Translations under genes and position numbers: made by a program | Shown: piece by piece, positions 29,734 to 37,745 of the stretch | How positions within the stretch are numbered: position 1 is the first letter of the stretch | How the letters are laid out: the number at the start of each line of letters is the position of its first letter | Source of the DNA: Cytophagaceae bacterium | GTDB taxonomy: Bacteria > Bacteroidota > Bacteroidia > Cytophagales > Flexibacteraceae | Direction of reading: 5' to 3' | Assembly (NCBI GenBank): GCA_027485575.1 | Contig: JAIXQU010000068.1 | Span: 1-63,718, forward strand | DNA: 63,718 nt | The notes under the pieces: model-generated | Seen by the model: only the letters and a program-made list of their open reading frames with translations | Told to the model about the DNA's origin: nothing | Database searches by the model: none

Positions 29734-31058
29734 ACAATCAGCAATTCCCGATTTCTCCTGGTTTTTGGTTAAAAGCCTATACGTGGACAAAGCAGTTTCC
29801 TTTTGCCTGTATATTAAATGGAAATGAATATAGCATTCCCTTCGGTGGTGCTTTTGGGAAAATCGTTGCCATTGGAAGTCATGAACTAGAATGGACAAAT
29901 GGCCGGTTTTTTGAGAAATTTTCTTCTTTGAAGCTGAATAGATCAGTTTTCGGATATTTAGGTTATGACCTTAAAAATGAAATAGAAGCATTAAAATCGG
30001 GTAATCCAAACCCCTTATTGTTCCCAAACGCAGTTTTATTTGAAGCCGAGACGCTGGTTGAAGAAAAGGATGGTTCCATTTACATCACCGCCCCTGATCC
30101 TGAGGCTATTTATGACCAAATCATCCATTGTAGCGACTTTAAACCCGAAAATCTATTGGGTGTTTCATTCTCCAAAACCATCGAAAAGGAGTGCTATTTA
30201 GAAAAGATAAATTCAATCAAAGACTTGATAGTTCAAGGCTTGGTTTATGAACTAAATTTTTGTCAGTTTTTTGAGTCAAACGATTCTTTCTGTGGGCTTT
30301 CTGCATATATAAATTTATTGGAGGCGTTTCCAATGCCATTTTCCGGTTGGTTTAAAGCCAATGAATTTGAAATTTCTTCTGCATCGCCCGAAAGATTTTT
30401 AAAAAAGGAGGGGCCCAGATTAATCTCTCAACCCATGAAGGGAACAGCCAAAAGGGGTAAAACCGAGTTGGAGGATCTGGAAAATGTTCGCTTTCTAAAA
30501 AATTCAGAAAAAGAAAAGGCAGAAAATTTAATGATTGTAGATCTAGTCAGAAATGACCTGGCAAGAGTTTCTGTTGCCGGAACTACAAACGTAGAGGAGC
30601 TTTTTGGAATTTATAAATTTCCAACTGTTTTTCAGATGATTAGTACAGTAACTTCTCAGTTAAAGCCGGAGTTGAACTGGGTAGATGTTTTGAAATCGAC
30701 CTTTCCAATGGGCAGTATGACAGGTGCTCCAAAGATTGAAGTGATGAATCAAATCGAAAATCTTGAGAATCGAAAAAGAGGGGCATTTTCTGGTGGACTG
30801 GGCTTTATTGACAATCAGGGAGATTTCGATTTTAATGTCTTGATAAGATCCTTTTTTATCAATCATAAAATCAGGAAAGCAGGTTTTTCGGTAGGCTCTG
30901 CCATTACCATTGATTCTGACCCGGAAATGGAATGGGATGAATGTAGCCATAAGGTAGGTGCCCTATTACAGATTTTTGGTACTTCCTGGGAAAAAGTAAT
31001 TTCAAAAACTTCTAATCCTCCGGTGGAAGAACACGCTCAGAAGGTCCACGAAGCGTAA
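29730..31058 (+). CDS. pabB: Aminodeoxychorismate synthase component I / anthranilate synthase-type enzyme
   Basis: The 442-residue protein is a chorismate-utilising enzyme: SASPERFL, QPMKGTAKRG (the P-[IM]-K-G-T motif), NLMIVDLVRNDLARV, GSMTGAPKIEVM and GGLGFID are all present. The MKGT in place of the anthranilate synthase form and the lack of a long inhibitor-binding N-domain favour PabB, which makes 4-amino-4-deoxychorismate for folate. A component II (glutaminase) gene is not nearby. I use the TTG at 29730, which overlaps the preceding stop as TTGA; TTG 29724 would add two residues. The last 47 bp overlap the convergent terC-like gene. Confidence 0.87.
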   Translation: MNNQQFPISPGFWLKAYTWTKQFPFACILNGNEYSIPFGGAFGKIVAIGSHELEWTNGRFFEKFSSLKLNRSVFGYLGYDLKNEIEALKSGNPNPLLFPNAVLFEAETLVEEKDGSIYITAPDPEAIYDQIIHCSDFKPENLLGVSFSKTIEKECYLEKINSIKDLIVQGLVYELNFCQFFESNDSFCGLSAYINLLEAFPMPFSGWFKANEFEISSASPERFLKKEGPRLISQPMKGTAKRGKTELEDLENVRFLKNSEKEKAENLMIVDLVRNDLARVSVAGTTNVEELFGIYKFPTVFQMISTVTSQLKPELNWVDVLKSTFPMGSMTGAPKIEVMNQIENLENRKRGAFSGGLGFIDNQGDFDFNVLIRSFFINHKIRKAGFSVGSAITIDSDPEMEWDECSHKVGALLQIFGTSWEKVISKTSNPPVEEHAQKVHEA

Positions 31059-31770
31059 CAGGTCTTGCCTTTTTTCTCATTTTTTGGTTTAAAACTTCAA
31101 CAATGAGAGCGAAAACCATTCCAAAATAAACGGTAGCCTTTGGCACATGGACATCAAATGCCTCAGCCACAAGAAGTACACCAATCATTATCAGAAAACA
31201 AAGGGCTAGCATTTTTAATGTTGGTCTTCTGTTGATAAAAATACTGATGTGCCTGGCGTAAAACATCATAATAGACATTGAAATAACCACTGCTACTATC
31301 ATGATTTCTACATGATTGGACAGGCCAACTGCTGTTAAAATAGAATCAAATGAGAAAACAATATCTATCAGTACAATTTGGACCAATGTACTGGAAAAGC
31401 TTACTTTTTTCTTTTCTGAACCCAGCGACTCATATTCACCTTCAAGCTTTCCATGAATTTCAGAAATGGTTTTTCCCATAAGGAAAAGTCCACCAAAAAA
31501 TAGAATTAAATCCCTTCCCGAAAATGAATATCCGCCGAATGCGAAAAGTTCTTCTTTTAGTCCTACAATCCAATTTATAACAAAAAGCAACCCAATGCGG
31601 ACGACCATAGCCAGTAGCAATCCTATTTTTCTGGCTTTAGATTGTTGACTTCCAGGAAGTTTAGCGGCAATAATTGAAATAAAAATAATATTATCTACGC
31701 CCAGAACAATTTCTAAAAGTGTTAACGAAAATAGACTGACAAGATTGTCAGTTGTAAAAAGTTGGTCCAT
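31012..31770 (-). CDS. TerC family integral membrane protein (YgdQ/YjbE type)
   Basis: The 252-residue protein has seven membrane segments and the two acidic TerC motifs in spans: EIVLGVDNIIF (about 20-30) and IDIVFSFDSILT (about 135-146). TerC proteins are implicated in Mn(II) export and in metalation of secreted enzymes, and in the tellurite-resistance systems from which the name comes. The C-terminus is basic and soluble. The stop lies 47 bp inside the 3' end of pabB on the opposite strand. The start is ATG at 31768-31770. Confidence 0.92.
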   Translation of the reverse strand: MDQLFTTDNLVSLFSLTLLEIVLGVDNIIFISIIAAKLPGSQQSKARKIGLLLAMVVRIGLLFVINWIVGLKEELFAFGGYSFSGRDLILFFGGLFLMGKTISEIHGKLEGEYESLGSEKKKVSFSSTLVQIVLIDIVFSFDSILTAVGLSNHVEIMIVAVVISMSIMMFYARHISIFINRRPTLKMLALCFLIMIGVLLVAEAFDVHVPKATVYFGMVFALIVEVLNQKMRKKARPVTLRGPSERVLPPED

Positions 31771-31875
31771 TATGAGTGCAAAACTGAATAGTATTTCTGA
31801 AAAATACGGTTGGTTGTTTTATTTTTTATTTTGAAACGGATTATTTATCAGCACTGCAGGCTTTTGATTTTCCAA

Positions 31876-33003
31876 TTACCAAAAATAGAACCTGCTGGAA
31901 ATAATGCCACCTGCCAGCTCTTCGGTTGAGTTTGATTTGATTTTAAAAATCCGACTTTTTTGCTGGTAATCCTTCGCGTCCGACAAATATATTTCTCTTC
32001 TTTTCGGGTCAAAACCCATGCCATACCAGTTTCCACTTAGGTTTTTTGCGAAATTTTGGGTAGGAAATTCACTTGAATTTTCCCTGACCATGAATACGCC
32101 GTTTTGTAGGAAAAAGAGAGAGTCTTTTGTTTGTGACGTTTGAAAATGAGACAGATAACGGCCTCTTTCATTTGAGTAAATCAATTTTTCAATCTTCCTT
32201 GTTTTTGAATTTATGTAGGCAATTCCAGGATTTTTTGAACCACTGGAATCGAATCCCACCCAGATGTTGTCATTTTTAGAAACAGCGATGGATGTCGAAT
32301 TTCCGGGTAAGGATATGGAATCCGTCAATTGGTCAAATTCTGAATTGATGATAAAGACCTTTGACTTGTTTCTGCATACTATCCAAACCTTATTTTCACT
32401 CAAAACCATTTCCTCTGACCACCCCTTAAATCCAATTGAGCCAATGGGAATTTTGGAGGTGCCATCTAATATCCAGATTTTTTGAGCATAAATATCTGAT
32501 ATATAGGCCTTAGAATTGGAAACTGGCAATAAAAACCGAGGTGAAGTCAGGCCCGTTATTGTTTTCAACGCGGTGAATTTTTGCCCATCTACCACTTCTA
32601 TTTTGGAAGAATTGTTAACCACCAACCACCAGTTTTCATTCCAATAAGTTGCAGATTGAAGAACATCGCCCAGTGAGCGGCCATTGACTTGCTTAAATCC
32701 ATCTTCCACCCATTTTTGGTTACTTAAGTTTAAGATTCCTGCCGATGCATTTCCCCAGCGAAAGTTACCTTCATTGCAAACCAGAACCATATTTCCGGGT
32801 GTAATTTCAAGGTTTTCTGGTTTTGGTTTTTCTTTAACTGAACAGGAATTGCTTATAACAACCAGACATATAAAACGTAAAATGCTTTTGAGTTTTTTTG
32901 GGTAAAACCAATTGCTGAATTTAGTTAGAAATAATTTTAAAATATTACAATACAGGCAACTACAGTTTATTCTGATTAAAATTAATGGAAAAGTGGGCAA
33001 CAT
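31876..33003 (-). CDS. Beta-propeller (YncE/DUF5074-like) lipoprotein
   Basis: The 375-residue protein begins with an uncertain N-terminus: the clearest export signal is the hydrophobic run SILRFICLVV followed by a lipobox ISNSC (Cys near residue 54), preceded by about 35 residues that look odd for a leader. The mature part carries repeated propeller-type strands such as VVNNSSKIEVVDG, KAYISDIYAQKIWILDG and KVWIVCRNKSKVFIIN, as in YncE/DUF5074 lipoproteins. One relative, BtuG of Bacteroides, binds vitamin B12 at the surface, but no BtuB gene or cobalamin riboswitch is present here. The ATG at 33001-33003 is the first Met; the real start may lie downstream at a non-ATG codon. Confidence 0.72.
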   Translation of the reverse strand: MLPTFPLILIRINCSCLYCNILKLFLTKFSNWFYPKKLKSILRFICLVVISNSCSVKEKPKPENLEITPGNMVLVCNEGNFRWGNASAGILNLSNQKWVEDGFKQVNGRSLGDVLQSATYWNENWWLVVNNSSKIEVVDGQKFTALKTITGLTSPRFLLPVSNSKAYISDIYAQKIWILDGTSKIPIGSIGFKGWSEEMVLSENKVWIVCRNKSKVFIINSEFDQLTDSISLPGNSTSIAVSKNDNIWVGFDSSGSKNPGIAYINSKTRKIEKLIYSNERGRYLSHFQTSQTKDSLFFLQNGVFMVRENSSEFPTQNFAKNLSGNWYGMGFDPKRREIYLSDAKDYQQKSRIFKIKSNSTEELAGGIISSRFYFW

Positions 33004-33087
33004 CTGCTTGTTTTGAACCTGCAATTTAGAACCAATGAGAGGATTGAATGTTATAAATTGAAATAGCGCTCAATTATTATAGTAGAA

Positions 33088-33795
33088 ATGGAAAAACCAA
33101 AAACGCCAACCTGGCTTATTCCTACAGGAGTAACCCTTATTGTACTTTCACTTTTGGGCATTGGTGCATATCAGGCATTTCAAAATCCCAAGCCGCCAAG
33201 AATCCTGGATACTTTTGGAAATCAACAAATTGATACCGTTGATGCCAGTGGAAAACCTGTTACCATTACTAACATTCATCGGGTTCCAAATTTTAGCTTT
33301 TTAGATCAGGATGGAAATATTGTCAATCAGGAAACAGTAGAAGGAAAGACATATGTGGCTGACTTCTTTTTTACCACTTGTGAAAGCATTTGTCCGGTAA
33401 TGAGCAAAGAAATAATGAAGCTTTGTAAGGTCCTGAAAGCTGATTCCAGTGTGGTTTTTATATCGCATACAGTTGACCCGGAGACGGATAGTGTTCCCAG
33501 ACTAAAATCTTATGCCATGGCCCACCAGGCAAATCCCAGGCAATGGCATTTTGTAACCGGTTCTAAGAAAGAACTTTATGAAATGGCCCGTACCGGATAT
33601 TTTGTTACAGCCACTGAAGGCGATGGAGGACCGGATGATTTTGTGCACACCCAGAACTTTGTTTTGGTTGACAAGTACAAACAAATTCGCGGCTATTATG
33701 ATGGGACGGATAGCCTCGAGATGGGTAAATTGTTAAAAGACATTGAATTGCTTAAAGCGGAATATGCCTGGAAAGACTCTCAGGCAAGCAATTAA
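33088..33795 (+). CDS. SCO1/SenC family protein
   Basis: The 235-residue protein has one N-terminal membrane anchor (about 9-30) and a thioredoxin-like domain with the copper-binding pair Cys98-x3-Cys102 (TTCESICP) and the distal His187 (FVHTQNF). SCO proteins bring copper to the CuA site of cytochrome c oxidase or act as thiol oxidoreductases in the periplasm. Cytochrome oxidase genes are not in this window. The gene is divergent from the propeller lipoprotein and its TAA stop overlaps the TAA of the convergent ABC gene (TTAA at 33792-33795). Confidence 0.93.
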   Translation: MEKPKTPTWLIPTGVTLIVLSLLGIGAYQAFQNPKPPRILDTFGNQQIDTVDASGKPVTITNIHRVPNFSFLDQDGNIVNQETVEGKTYVADFFFTTCESICPVMSKEIMKLCKVLKADSSVVFISHTVDPETDSVPRLKSYAMAHQANPRQWHFVTGSKKELYEMARTGYFVTATEGDGGPDDFVHTQNFVLVDKYKQIRGYYDGTDSLEMGKLLKDIELLKAEYAWKDSQASN

Positions 33796-36700
33796 GTTTC
33801 CTGGACTTTGAGAACCCACCTTAAAAATCTGAAACGAAGCATTAACCCAATTACAAGAGTAAAAAACCAAATAACAAAAATGTTAAATGTTTCTGTTGGG
33901 AAATACCTTCCGCAGAAGTGTTTTAGTGGTGCATAAAAATGAGCCCGAAAGTCAAGGAAGTGACTGGGCTCTGGTATTTGGAAAATGGGTGTAGATTTTC
34001 GGATGATTCCTTCTTTTGACAATTCCGACCCGGGAATCATTATGTTGTCATTTTTTACCAAATCGCTAACTCTCTCATTTTCTGAAAATTGCTTTAGATC
34101 TCCGATGGTTTTTACATGCGAGGGAAGTTTTGCGAACCTGGAAAGAACTTCGTTTTGTTTATTTTCTTCTTTTTGATAAGCTTGGTTGTAGTAATGTTTA
34201 AAACCTTTCAGTTTTAAGAGAATCTTAGAATGGTCTTCTTCTTTTAAAGGCAAATTTTGAACTGCTTTCCACTCAGAAGGGTTCACTCCAAATCCATTTC
34301 CTTCCTTGCATAATTCTTTAAAAAGTAATGTTTGCTTTAATTGGATGTCAGCGGGTTTTTCATTTGAATTTGCCCGAAAGTACAAATCATTCAAAAGCGT
34401 TTCTAACTGGGTTAGATAGTAGGTTCTTTTATATTGGAATTCGGCCATTTTTTGTTCTGTACCAAAAATGATTTTTTGGAATTCATTGTTTTTAAACTGA
34501 GCCACCATGAGTGCTTCATAAGCCCAACGGGATACCATTAGTTCACCCACTACAGGAACCTTTGAAATATTGCCAAAAGTTGGATTGAGTTTATCAAATC
34601 GGATAACAACCCCACCAAGAACAAGTTGTGGGATTAGAAGAAGTGGTATCAAGATATAAACCACCACGGCTTTCTTTAGGGTATCAGAAAGCAAAAGGCC
34701 CATCATATTTGCACAACAGGAGGTTGAAAACATAACCAACCAAAACTCCATGCCTATGTCATTTACTTCCAGGACAAAATCGCTTATGGCCACAAATGCC
34801 AAAGTGTGTAAGGCAGAAAGTGAAAAAAGCAATGTTATTTTGGCGATGAGGTAGCTGCTTCTGCTCAGGTGCAAAAACCGCTCTCTTTTTAAAGTTAACC
34901 GGTCTCTGATTATTTCTTCAGCGCTTACGGAAAGCCCCATGAAAAGTGCCACAATCACTGACATGAAAAAGTAAGCCGGAATGTTTTCATTCAGGAAAAA
35001 CAAATAAGGCTTGTCTTCAAATCCATTTGTTGGGGAATATCTTACAATAATTGCCAATAGAAGTGCCAAAAAAGGTGCCTCAAATAAGTTGATTATCAAA
35101 TATTGGCTGTCTCTGATTTTCGAAAGAAAATCCCTTTTAAGGTAAATGAAGATCTGCTGAACAAATCCGGGCTGGCATATCAGCTTGGGAACCAGTGTAC
35201 TCACATTTTCATCTACCGTGGGTTTGGGAGATTTTAGGTAAAGCTCGTTCCAATCTTGTGGCAGCTTTTTCCTCTGCTCAGTTTCTTCCCCAAATTCGTT
35301 GATTATTTTTAACTCAATCAAGTCGAAAATTTCAGCCACATCAGCAACCTCAGCTCCGTCATGAATGGGAGGAAGTTGCATCGCATCCCTGAAATAAGGC
35401 ACCGCTTCCAGGGTGTTTCCATAATAAATGGGAAAACCACCTTTGTCCAAAACCAGCAAGCGGTCGAACATCTTAAAGATTTCGGGTGAAGGTTGGTGGA
35501 TAATTACAAAAACAAGCTTTCCATTGAGCGCAAGGTCTTTGAGCAACTCCATGGTTTTCACACTATCTCTGCTACTTAATCCGGAGGTAGGCTCGTCAAC
35601 AAACATAATTGACGGTTGCCGAATCAATTCCATCCCAATGTTTAGCCTTTTTCGCTGCCCGCCTGAAACTGTTTTTCGGGATACCGAACCAACTTCAATG
35701 TCCCTGGCTTCATTTAATCCAAGAGAGGATAGCGTTTTGTCAACCAGTTCACAAATCTCAGGTTCTTCTAAATTTCCAAAACTGAATTTGGCAGAGAAAA
35801 ACAGATTTTGAAAAACCGTGAGATGCTCATTAAGCACATCATCCTGAGGCACATAACCAATTACGCCTTCTAGTTCCTCAGGGTATTCATGTACGTTTTT
35901 TCCATTGATGAATACTTTGCCTTTACTAGGTTTATCGTTTCCGTTGAGAACATTGAACAAAGTTGATTTTCCACAACCGCTTGCGCCCATTATGGCCACC
36001 ATTCTTCCCCCCTTTTCTGAAATACTTAGGTTATGCAAGCCCGTTTTCCCATTTGGAAATTGGAACTCAACATTTTTGGCCTCAAAGTGAATGGGGGACC
36101 TATCTATTGGTGTTGAAAACTTTTCTCTGATGTCAGTGAAAAATACCGGGTCCATTTCATCCTGCCTTATGGTCGCACCGGGTGCCCAAACCCTACTCAC
36201 GCCATTTTGCATGATTTGGCCATTTAAATAGGTATCTGAATTGCCAAAATACCTGACAAAATAAGTCTCAATGGATGGAAGTTTTAAAACGACAATTTCT
36301 CCCTCCATCTTTTCCTTTTTCTGAAAAAGCCCACTCTTTAACTCAAGATTTTCATTTTTTGCAAGAGTGAGTGAATACGGCAAATCCAATTCCAGGGCAG
36401 TCCGTGCCGAGCCGTATGCTTTAAGGAGATCAATATCCTTAATTTGAAGATTTAAGGCTTGTTCAATCTTTTCAAGAATTTTATTTTCTGCAAAAGATAC
36501 ATTCCCATCCAAAGCTGAAAGTTCTACCAATTCAAGGTAGAGGAAAAACTTTTGGGAAAGCTTTAACTCAGTATTTACAATACCTGCAATCGATTCAAGC
36601 TCTTTGTCAATCCAGCCCTCGGTGTCCTTTTTTTCTTCAAATTTCTGCAAGGTTTTTTCAAGCAGATTTAAAAAAATAGCCACCGACCTTCCAGTAAGGT

Positions 36701-36809
36701 GGTGGCTTAAAAATTGTTCTATTCTATTCTTTTCTACTTCTTGAATTCCATCAGAACCAGCAAGGATAACATAGAGTCTTAAAAAGGACCGAATTAGTTG
36801 CTCATTCAT
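33792..36809 (-). CDS. TerB-ABCG fusion transporter
   Basis: The 1005-residue protein joins three parts. Residues 1-150 form a helical TerB-like domain with two acidic motifs (LAGSDGIQEVE near 16-26 and LSALDGNVSFAE near 97-108). Residues 165-230 are beta-rich, possibly a degenerate FHA domain. From 235 comes an ABCG-type ATPase with Walker A GASGCGKST (275-283), signature VSGGQ (381-385) and Walker B MFVDEP (402-407), followed by an ABC-2 membrane domain (five spans about 570-735, one near 970-995) with a long soluble stretch between the fifth and sixth spans. Substrate is unknown. A lipoprotein gene lies 39 bp upstream in the same transcript. Confidence 0.84.
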   Translation of the reverse strand: MNEQLIRSFLRLYVILAGSDGIQEVEKNRIEQFLSHHLTGRSVAIFLNLLEKTLQKFEEKKDTEGWIDKELESIAGIVNTELKLSQKFFLYLELVELSALDGNVSFAENKILEKIEQALNLQIKDIDLLKAYGSARTALELDLPYSLTLAKNENLELKSGLFQKKEKMEGEIVVLKLPSIETYFVRYFGNSDTYLNGQIMQNGVSRVWAPGATIRQDEMDPVFFTDIREKFSTPIDRSPIHFEAKNVEFQFPNGKTGLHNLSISEKGGRMVAIMGASGCGKSTLFNVLNGNDKPSKGKVFINGKNVHEYPEELEGVIGYVPQDDVLNEHLTVFQNLFFSAKFSFGNLEEPEICELVDKTLSSLGLNEARDIEVGSVSRKTVSGGQRKRLNIGMELIRQPSIMFVDEPTSGLSSRDSVKTMELLKDLALNGKLVFVIIHQPSPEIFKMFDRLLVLDKGGFPIYYGNTLEAVPYFRDAMQLPPIHDGAEVADVAEIFDLIELKIINEFGEETEQRKKLPQDWNELYLKSPKPTVDENVSTLVPKLICQPGFVQQIFIYLKRDFLSKIRDSQYLIINLFEAPFLALLLAIIVRYSPTNGFEDKPYLFFLNENIPAYFFMSVIVALFMGLSVSAEEIIRDRLTLKRERFLHLSRSSYLIAKITLLFSLSALHTLAFVAISDFVLEVNDIGMEFWLVMFSTSCCANMMGLLLSDTLKKAVVVYILIPLLLIPQLVLGGVVIRFDKLNPTFGNISKVPVVGELMVSRWAYEALMVAQFKNNEFQKIIFGTEQKMAEFQYKRTYYLTQLETLLNDLYFRANSNEKPADIQLKQTLLFKELCKEGNGFGVNPSEWKAVQNLPLKEEDHSKILLKLKGFKHYYNQAYQKEENKQNEVLSRFAKLPSHVKTIGDLKQFSENERVSDLVKNDNIMIPGSELSKEGIIRKSTPIFQIPEPSHFLDFRAHFYAPLKHFCGRYFPTETFNIFVIWFFTLVIGLMLRFRFLRWVLKVQET

Positions 36810-36848
36810 CTGATAGGCAGATAGTTCAAATCCTAAATGGAATAAAAC

Positions 36849-37745
36849 CTATTTAATCCAGCTATTTCTGATTTCTGAAATAGAATTGGCCATATCATGA
36901 ATATCCTTTTCGGTAGGAATCATATCGCCCTTGTTTTCAGCTATTTTCTTTGGCCAATCAGCTTTCTTATAAATAGCCTGAGCGACCTCCAATTGACCAA
37001 TCAGCTTTGAAACCAATTCATCATTGTCATTCACTTTTTTCAGCAGTTCAATAAGACTATTCAGTGCCGCTTCTTGTTTTATTACAGTGTTTACAAGGGG
37101 AACAAGGATTTTGTCTTGTTCAATCTTTGGCAATCCGGTAGGCGGATAGTCGTGGATTAGCCCACAATTTAAATAAAGCCCTTCTATAAATGCTCCGGCC
37201 ATAAGCAAAGAAGCATTTTTCATTTGCTCATTGCTTTGTAAAATGGAGGCAGAATGAGCCAAAGAGGCATCTGTTATAGAAATTAAAGAGTCCCTTTTTC
37301 CCAGATTTTTTTCAATTCTTGACAAAATACTTGGATCAAAAGCATTGGATACCCCTATTTTTTCTCCAAGTTTTTTACTTACTGCAAACATTTTTATAGC
37401 CTCCTGTCCTTTTTCGTAAGCAGCCAGGTAACCAACATCAGACCCAAAAACGCCGATGTTAAATGCCGCTTTTGAAGAATTATCAAGAACTTTTTCTGCA
37501 TTTTCAAGCGGGTTTAACAATTTAGCTTCGTATTCTGCCCCTGTCATGGCAATCAAATTTGGAATATCAGAAGGCTTTGGGAGTTTAGAAATTAGCTCGT
37601 CAACCGCATCTAACATTTCAGCATTCTGAGATACAGCTACCGTATCAATAGTTTTTGTTTCTTTTTCCGGGTTTGAGCCACAGGAAGAAAGAAGGGCAAT
37701 TGCCAATGCTGAGGCTATAAATTGTGGAATATGAATTTTCATCAT
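36849..37745 (-). CDS. Helical lipoprotein, partner of TerB-ABCG
   Basis: The 298-residue protein has a lipoprotein signal peptide with lipobox LSSC (Cys near 22) and a mature part that is mostly alpha-helical, with GVFGSDVGYLAAYEKGQEA near residue 100 and acidic/Lys-rich helices elsewhere. I do not recognise a named family. It starts with two consecutive Met codons (37740-37745). The gene ends 39 bp before the TerB-ABCG gene on the same strand, so the pair is probably co-transcribed and may act together at the envelope (inference). Confidence 0.78.
   Translation of the reverse strand: MMKIHIPQFIASALAIALLSSCGSNPEKETKTIDTVAVSQNAEMLDAVDELISKLPKPSDIPNLIAMTGAEYEAKLLNPLENAEKVLDNSSKAAFNIGVFGSDVGYLAAYEKGQEAIKMFAVSKKLGEKIGVSNAFDPSILSRIEKNLGKRDSLISITDASLAHSASILQSNEQMKNASLLMAGAFIEGLYLNCGLIHDYPPTGLPKIEQDKILVPLVNTVIKQEAALNSLIELLKKVNDNDELVSKLIGQLEVAQAIYKKADWPKKIAENKGDMIPTEKDIHDMANSISEIRNSWIK

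Follow-up and report, generated by a model that had tools for sequence, protein, structure and literature searches.

A TerB–FHA-like–ABCG half-transporter fusion and its co-inherited lipoprotein in Bacteroidota, with SiaB/SiaC-type genes beside sister copies

What kind of system is encoded by a gene that joins a TerB domain to an ABC transporter in a single polypeptide, and that is preceded by a lipoprotein gene without recognised relatives? We addressed this question for a locus in the window, by which we mean the whole 63,718 nt stretch of Cytophagaceae DNA that was analysed. Both open reading frames are intact, the fusion at 36809..33792 (-) and the lipoprotein gene, here called LP, at 37745..36849 (-), 39 bp upstream. 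No terminator-like site was found in the gap between them, and promoter-like sites occur there as expected from shuffled sequence, in a scan that does not cover Bacteroidota promoters. The features of the locus are:

33792..36809, (-) strand: TerB–FHA-like–ABCG half-transporter fusion, 1005 aa (intact ORF, Pfam, AlphaFold, fold match)
36387..36809, (-) strand: TerB domain, residues 1-141, all helical (PF05099 in 53 of 53 family N-termini; AlphaFold helices)
36105..36386, (-) strand: FHA-like beta domain, residues 142-235, in which no phosphothreonine-binding residues are recognisable (model strands, hhalign, column composition)
35400..36089, (-) strand: ABC ATPase, residues 241-470 (Pfam; motifs intact)
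34620..35165, (-) strand: ABC-2 membrane domain TM1-TM5, residues 549-730 (PF01061, hydropathy, model)
33897..34619, (-) strand: helical insert between TM5 and TM6, residues 731-971, predicted to be periplasmic (model, conserved length, divergence tracking LP)
33807..33896, (-) strand: TM6 and short cytosolic tail, residues 972-1001 (model, hydropathy)
36849..37745, (-) strand: LP, all-helical lipoprotein, 298 aa (lipobox LLSSC, mature N-terminus CGSNPEKE)

The AlphaFold model of the fusion (mean pLDDT 85) consists of a helical TerB domain (residues 3-141), a set of strands (146-223), the ATPase from residue 241, five TM helices, an insert of ~240 aa and TM6. Pfam identifies the ATPase (PF00005, E 3e-30, residues 258-409) and the membrane domain (PF01061, E 3e-21, residues 551-772). 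The Walker A (GASGCGKST), signature (SGGQRKR), Walker B (MFVDEPT) and H-loop (IIHQPS) motifs are intact, and their key residues are invariant in the family. The ATPase precedes an ABC-2 type membrane domain in one chain, which is the ABCG order, and the predicted fold superposes on ABCG16, ABCG2 and ABCG1 with Z 25-27 over 520-550 residues. This is in accordance with an earlier note on the locus, which had read an ABCG ATPase and an ABC-2 membrane domain from the sequence. Judged by these sequence features, the fusion is most likely an ATP-driven exporter. PADLOC matches to mad3 and mad8 were confined to the ATPase, and we therefore make no claim of a defence role.

Eukaryotic ABCG proteins (ABCG1, ABCG2, ABCG5/8 and plant ABCG16) share the order of ATPase and membrane domain as well as the fold, with about 20-26% identity over 520-550 residues. 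The fusion differs from them by its N-terminal TerB and FHA-like domains and by the ~240-aa insert that precedes TM6; the corresponding loop of eukaryotic ABCGs is much shorter. This insert (~731-971), described in the earlier note as a large soluble insertion, is 236-265 aa long in all 51 aligned members. By analogy with ABCG topology it would lie on the periplasmic side, and its model contains long helices at 778-812 and 857-893. A CxxC pair (C..CGNVNPEQIF; window 35337-35378, residues 478-491) is located between the ATPase and TM1. It is retained by 46 of the 51 relatives, the window clade and two others having lost it, and could be a zinc or redox site.

For the N-terminal domain, the window protein alone falls just below the Pfam TerB (PF05099) cut-off of 24.4 bits, scoring 17.6 bits with the whole protein and 20.7 bits with the N-terminus alone. 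PF05099 is nevertheless matched by the N-termini of all 53 family members (E up to 1, best 7e-13), and the fusion paralogues of the same genome exceed the cut-off. As the whole family matches, the assignment is safe, and the TerB-like domain proposed earlier stands. The two acidic motifs reported with it were both found, SDGIQEVE at 19-26 and DGNVSFAE near 100; the first is kept across the family as DGV...E and the second is looser. A profile search with the fusion N-terminus against PDB sequences returned nothing. TerB is thus common to all 53 members of the fusion family, where it is joined to a transporter in a conserved neighbourhood without ter operon genes.

The strands at 146-223 confirm the small beta-rich domain of the earlier note, which had also suggested a comparison with FHA. 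In a profile–profile alignment (hhalign) with 17 FHA domains from relatives, the domain scored 26.9; the highest score among 60 column shuffles was 17.1, and unrelated controls reached about 10. The alignment covers only the C-terminal half of the beta domain, with an hhalign probability of 38%. The score suggests a resemblance to FHA, but there is no Pfam FHA match in the domain. The domain lacks the Ser and the His that define the phosphothreonine-binding SxxH motif, the aligned columns being variable (E169) and I/L/V (I172). We consequently dropped a canonical FHA domain reading phospho-SiaC as a candidate and retain only an FHA-like fold, which probably does not bind phosphothreonine in the usual way.

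The AlphaFold model of LP is all-alpha and confident (mean pLDDT 87). No convincing match to LP was found in Pfam, NCBIfam or PDB sequences, and the best PDB fold match has E 0.08, helical bundles giving weak matches generally. The B. fragilis helical protein 3iee was rejected as a relative, since its Z of 6.4 is not above background. This agrees with the earlier note, which had called the lipoprotein gene unrecognised. Mature LPs start with CGG or CGS in most family members. In the minimal LES surface-export signal of Bacteroidota (PMC5080379), the cysteine is followed by Lys-(Asp/Glu)2 or Gln-Ala-(Asp/Glu)2. A scan at +2, with the +3 optimum form and the SDDDD/SDDFE variants outside its scope, detected it in 0 of 76 LPs with a lipobox, and CGSNPEKE of the window LP contains no LES motif at +2 or +3. 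Because the minimal signal is absent at +2, LP more likely faces the periplasm. In most neighbourhoods other than the window type, LP is followed by a gene for Z (L036 6433-6861, L005 3998-4423 and relatives), even at loci that lack a nearby fusion. The Z protein is secreted, about 143 aa long and predicted to be beta, with weak GOLD/galactose-binding similarity; it is not found beside window-type fusions.

In order to assess the co-inheritance of the two genes, presence was scored with a fusion N-terminus profile (A5) and an LP profile (A3). Both are present in the same 41 of 59 related genomes and both are missing from the other 18. Full-length fusion and LP also occur in the same 4 of 148 genomes sampled across the phylum, a sample that partly overlaps the 59 relatives; this count leaves out G099 and a second match in G103, both being freestanding TerB proteins shorter than 300 aa. 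The naive Fisher p for the relatives is 2e-15, and shared descent inflates this and all other co-occurrence p-values. No exception was seen in the genomes checked, which is a favourable outcome for the pairing that the earlier note proposed and that lack of co-occurrence was to refute. In G018 the two genes lie 2.5 Mb apart and both are still present. Families f15 and f19 contain genomes with the pair as well as genomes lacking both genes, which requires the two to have been lost or gained together more than once.

We also compared evolutionary distances over 42 paired loci. With the other fusion regions removed, LP distances correlate with those of the insert (0.43, jackknife s.e. 0.10). The correlation with TerB is weak (0.29, s.e. 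0.12), and none is seen with the TM domain (-0.02, s.e. 0.07) or the FHA-like region. The LP–insert correlation is indirect evidence in favour of a docking of LP on the insert; the LP–TerB correlation is left unexplained by a purely periplasmic contact.

LP is adjacent to the fusion in 56 of 80 GTDB fusion loci. The gene order is LP-fusion, as in the window, in 26 of them, LP-Z-fusion in 12 and fusion then LP in 17, with one mixed cluster; in the remaining 24 of the 80 there is no LP nearby, some of these lying at contig ends. On the fusion tree, loci with one type of neighbourhood tend to group together (12 changes vs 42 when shuffled); this is a quick tree on which three long branches, including the window genome's own two paralogues, have an uncertain position. 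Sia genes accompany 15 of the 17 fusion-then-LP loci. In Pseudomonas, the SiaABC phospho-switch controls biofilm formation. Here, missed by the earlier note, sister copies of the window pair form a one-strand operon of fixed order, PP2C-SiaB-SiaC-fusion-LP-Z, which makes up one clade and is found in Cytophagales and Bacteroidales. PP2C-SiaB-SiaC-fusion-LP was observed in 13 GTDB loci and partially in two more. The PP2C has a HAMP-GAF-PAS-SpoIIE architecture, the 184-aa SiaB-type protein has matches to DUF6272 and, with E 1e-14, to chain A of 6kko, a SiaC complex, and the 120-aa SiaC-type protein matches PF09345 (E 2e-39). The phosphosite of P. aeruginosa SiaC is T68 (PMC7647112), and the threonine aligned with it is kept, as YFNTASSK, in 14 of 14 loci with SiaB and SiaC beside the fusion.

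Of the 41 fusion-positive relatives, 40 carry SiaC, as do 3 of the 18 fusion-negative ones (Fisher p 3e-10, inflated as above); at least 25 of the 41 have it within about 2 kb of a fusion. The exception is G022, a reduced genome (93% complete) in which fusion and LP are present and SiaC was not found. No Sia genes lie beside the window fusion; the SiaC and SiaB genes of this genome, three of each type, are on other contigs. SiaB-SiaC pairs without such a transporter alongside are located at L154 6564-7517, L155 7072-8006 and L156 6018-6873. Sia control is thus not universal, given G022 and the window clade without local Sia genes, and for the window copy it would be possible in trans only.

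The operons have the same order of PP2C, SiaB kinase and SiaC, and the same phospho-threonine, as SiaABCD of Pseudomonas aeruginosa (PMC7647112, PMC8457831), where the output is the diguanylate cyclase SiaD; the sister operons instead carry the TerB–ABCG fusion, LP and Z, and the window copy lies outside any Sia operon. DUF1987 (SiaC) proteins have been proposed to modulate adjacent proteins (PMC8457831), and in the sister operons this adjacent protein is the transporter. SiaC is the probable switch in these operons, with the transporter replacing SiaD as its putative target.

Taken together, we consider it moderately probable that the two genes encode one inner-membrane export unit that is docked to LP, controlled from the cytosol and, in sister copies, switched by SiaC. 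The membrane-linked unit suggested by the earlier note is supported. In the model that we infer for transport, docking and SiaC control, the fusion would dimerise as an ABCG-type half-transporter and hydrolyse ATP. Its periplasmic helical domain would dock onto the membrane-anchored LP, which would receive, carry or gate the substrate on the periplasmic side, and the TerB and FHA-like domains would serve as the cytosolic control input. In sister copies, the SiaA-like PP2C phosphatase and the SiaB kinase would set the phosphorylation of SiaC, which would act on the transporter and not on a SiaD diguanylate cyclase as in Pseudomonas. The window copy would be a paralogue of the same system without local Sia genes. 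More tentatively, and as a possibility that we rate below this model, a family of ABC exporters found in large parts of Bacteroidota may be toggled by direct SiaC binding, such that the switch behind c-di-GMP in Pseudomonas would here control an envelope pump that has a lipoprotein of its own.

Export of a substrate is not the only way to read a fusion with an obligate helical partner, long periplasmic helices (778-812, 857-893) and heavy cytosolic signalling input. These same features would suit a transmitter in which, as in FtsEX, ATP cycles move the periplasmic domain to act mechanically on LP and the envelope machinery without any substrate. We find this unlikely, as the membrane domain has the full ABCG exporter fold over 520-550 residues and is not of the MacB/FtsX type. 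Alternatively, LP or Z could be the cargo, the fusion carrying the lipoprotein or secreted protein encoded with it across the envelope. Such a role would fit the co-inheritance of fusion and LP, the gene row that LP and Z share, and the extra LP copies in several genomes. However, LPs outnumber fusions in some genomes and the reverse is seen in others, Z is missing beside the window type, and the ABCG transporters whose structures are known carry small lipophilic molecules, all of which makes a protein cargo distinctly improbable.

The TerB domain, together with a TerC gene 2 kb away, could also point to a Ter-type metal or tellurite stress system, and the earlier note had drawn this connection. 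A TerC-family gene and a DUF5074 protein adjoin the fusion (window 31012-33024). Among the 80 loci, however, TerC, SCO1, DedA and DUF5074 lie beside the fusion only in the nearest relatives (fusions 60% and 54% identical). TerC is moreover almost ubiquitous in the relatives and is present in 14 of the 18 genomes without the fusion, giving a Fisher p of 0.06 for co-occurrence, inflated like the rest, compared to 3e-10 for SiaC. No other ter gene was found among the neighbours scanned. On the grounds of the restricted linkage and the presence of TerC in fusion-negative genomes we rejected the TerC/tellurite link, and a Ter stress system is the least probable of these explanations, at best a very remote one. 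We retain the LP-docked exporter as the preferred reading.

The closest described parallel is Rv1747-PknF of Mycobacterium tuberculosis, likewise an ABCG-like half-transporter with N-terminal FHA domains, which is in an operon with a Ser/Thr kinase and is thought to export an envelope component (PMC3908365, PMC5549992). Rv1747 has two FHA domains and no TerB, whereas the fusion has TerB and one degenerate FHA-like domain; the linked kinase is of the Hanks type for Rv1747 and of the SiaB type in the sister copies. To our knowledge, Rv1747 has no lipoprotein partner. The open-access literature searched yielded no paper that deals with the fusion or LP, or with SiaC in connection with an ABC transporter. 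The fusion–LP pair is a real, conserved Bacteroidota system that is apparently undescribed in that literature; its parts are already known, and the novelty is their combination and strict partnership. SiaB/SiaC-type genes are common in Bacteroidota, and none of the literature searched names their output there. The fixed gene order across distant lineages points to a concrete one, an ABCG-type pump, and the LP family, which is without a curated model, gains a strict partner.

SiaC is greatly expanded in G020, G023, G039 and G054, with 11 to 42 copies per genome, and other partner-switch outputs besides the ABCG fusion therefore probably exist. Beyond what the earlier note described, the window genome encodes two further fusions (contigs C9 and C87) and two further LPs, one beside the C87 fusion and one on C14 with Z only. 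The third fusion paralogue of this genome, L004 5524-8721 on C9, has neither LP nor Z alongside. Thirteen solo fusions of relatives form a separate clade on the fusion tree. Fusions from L132 and L141, labelled Chlorobiota and Candidatus Planktophila, are nested within Bacteroidota ones, and these records are probably mislabelled or misbinned contigs.
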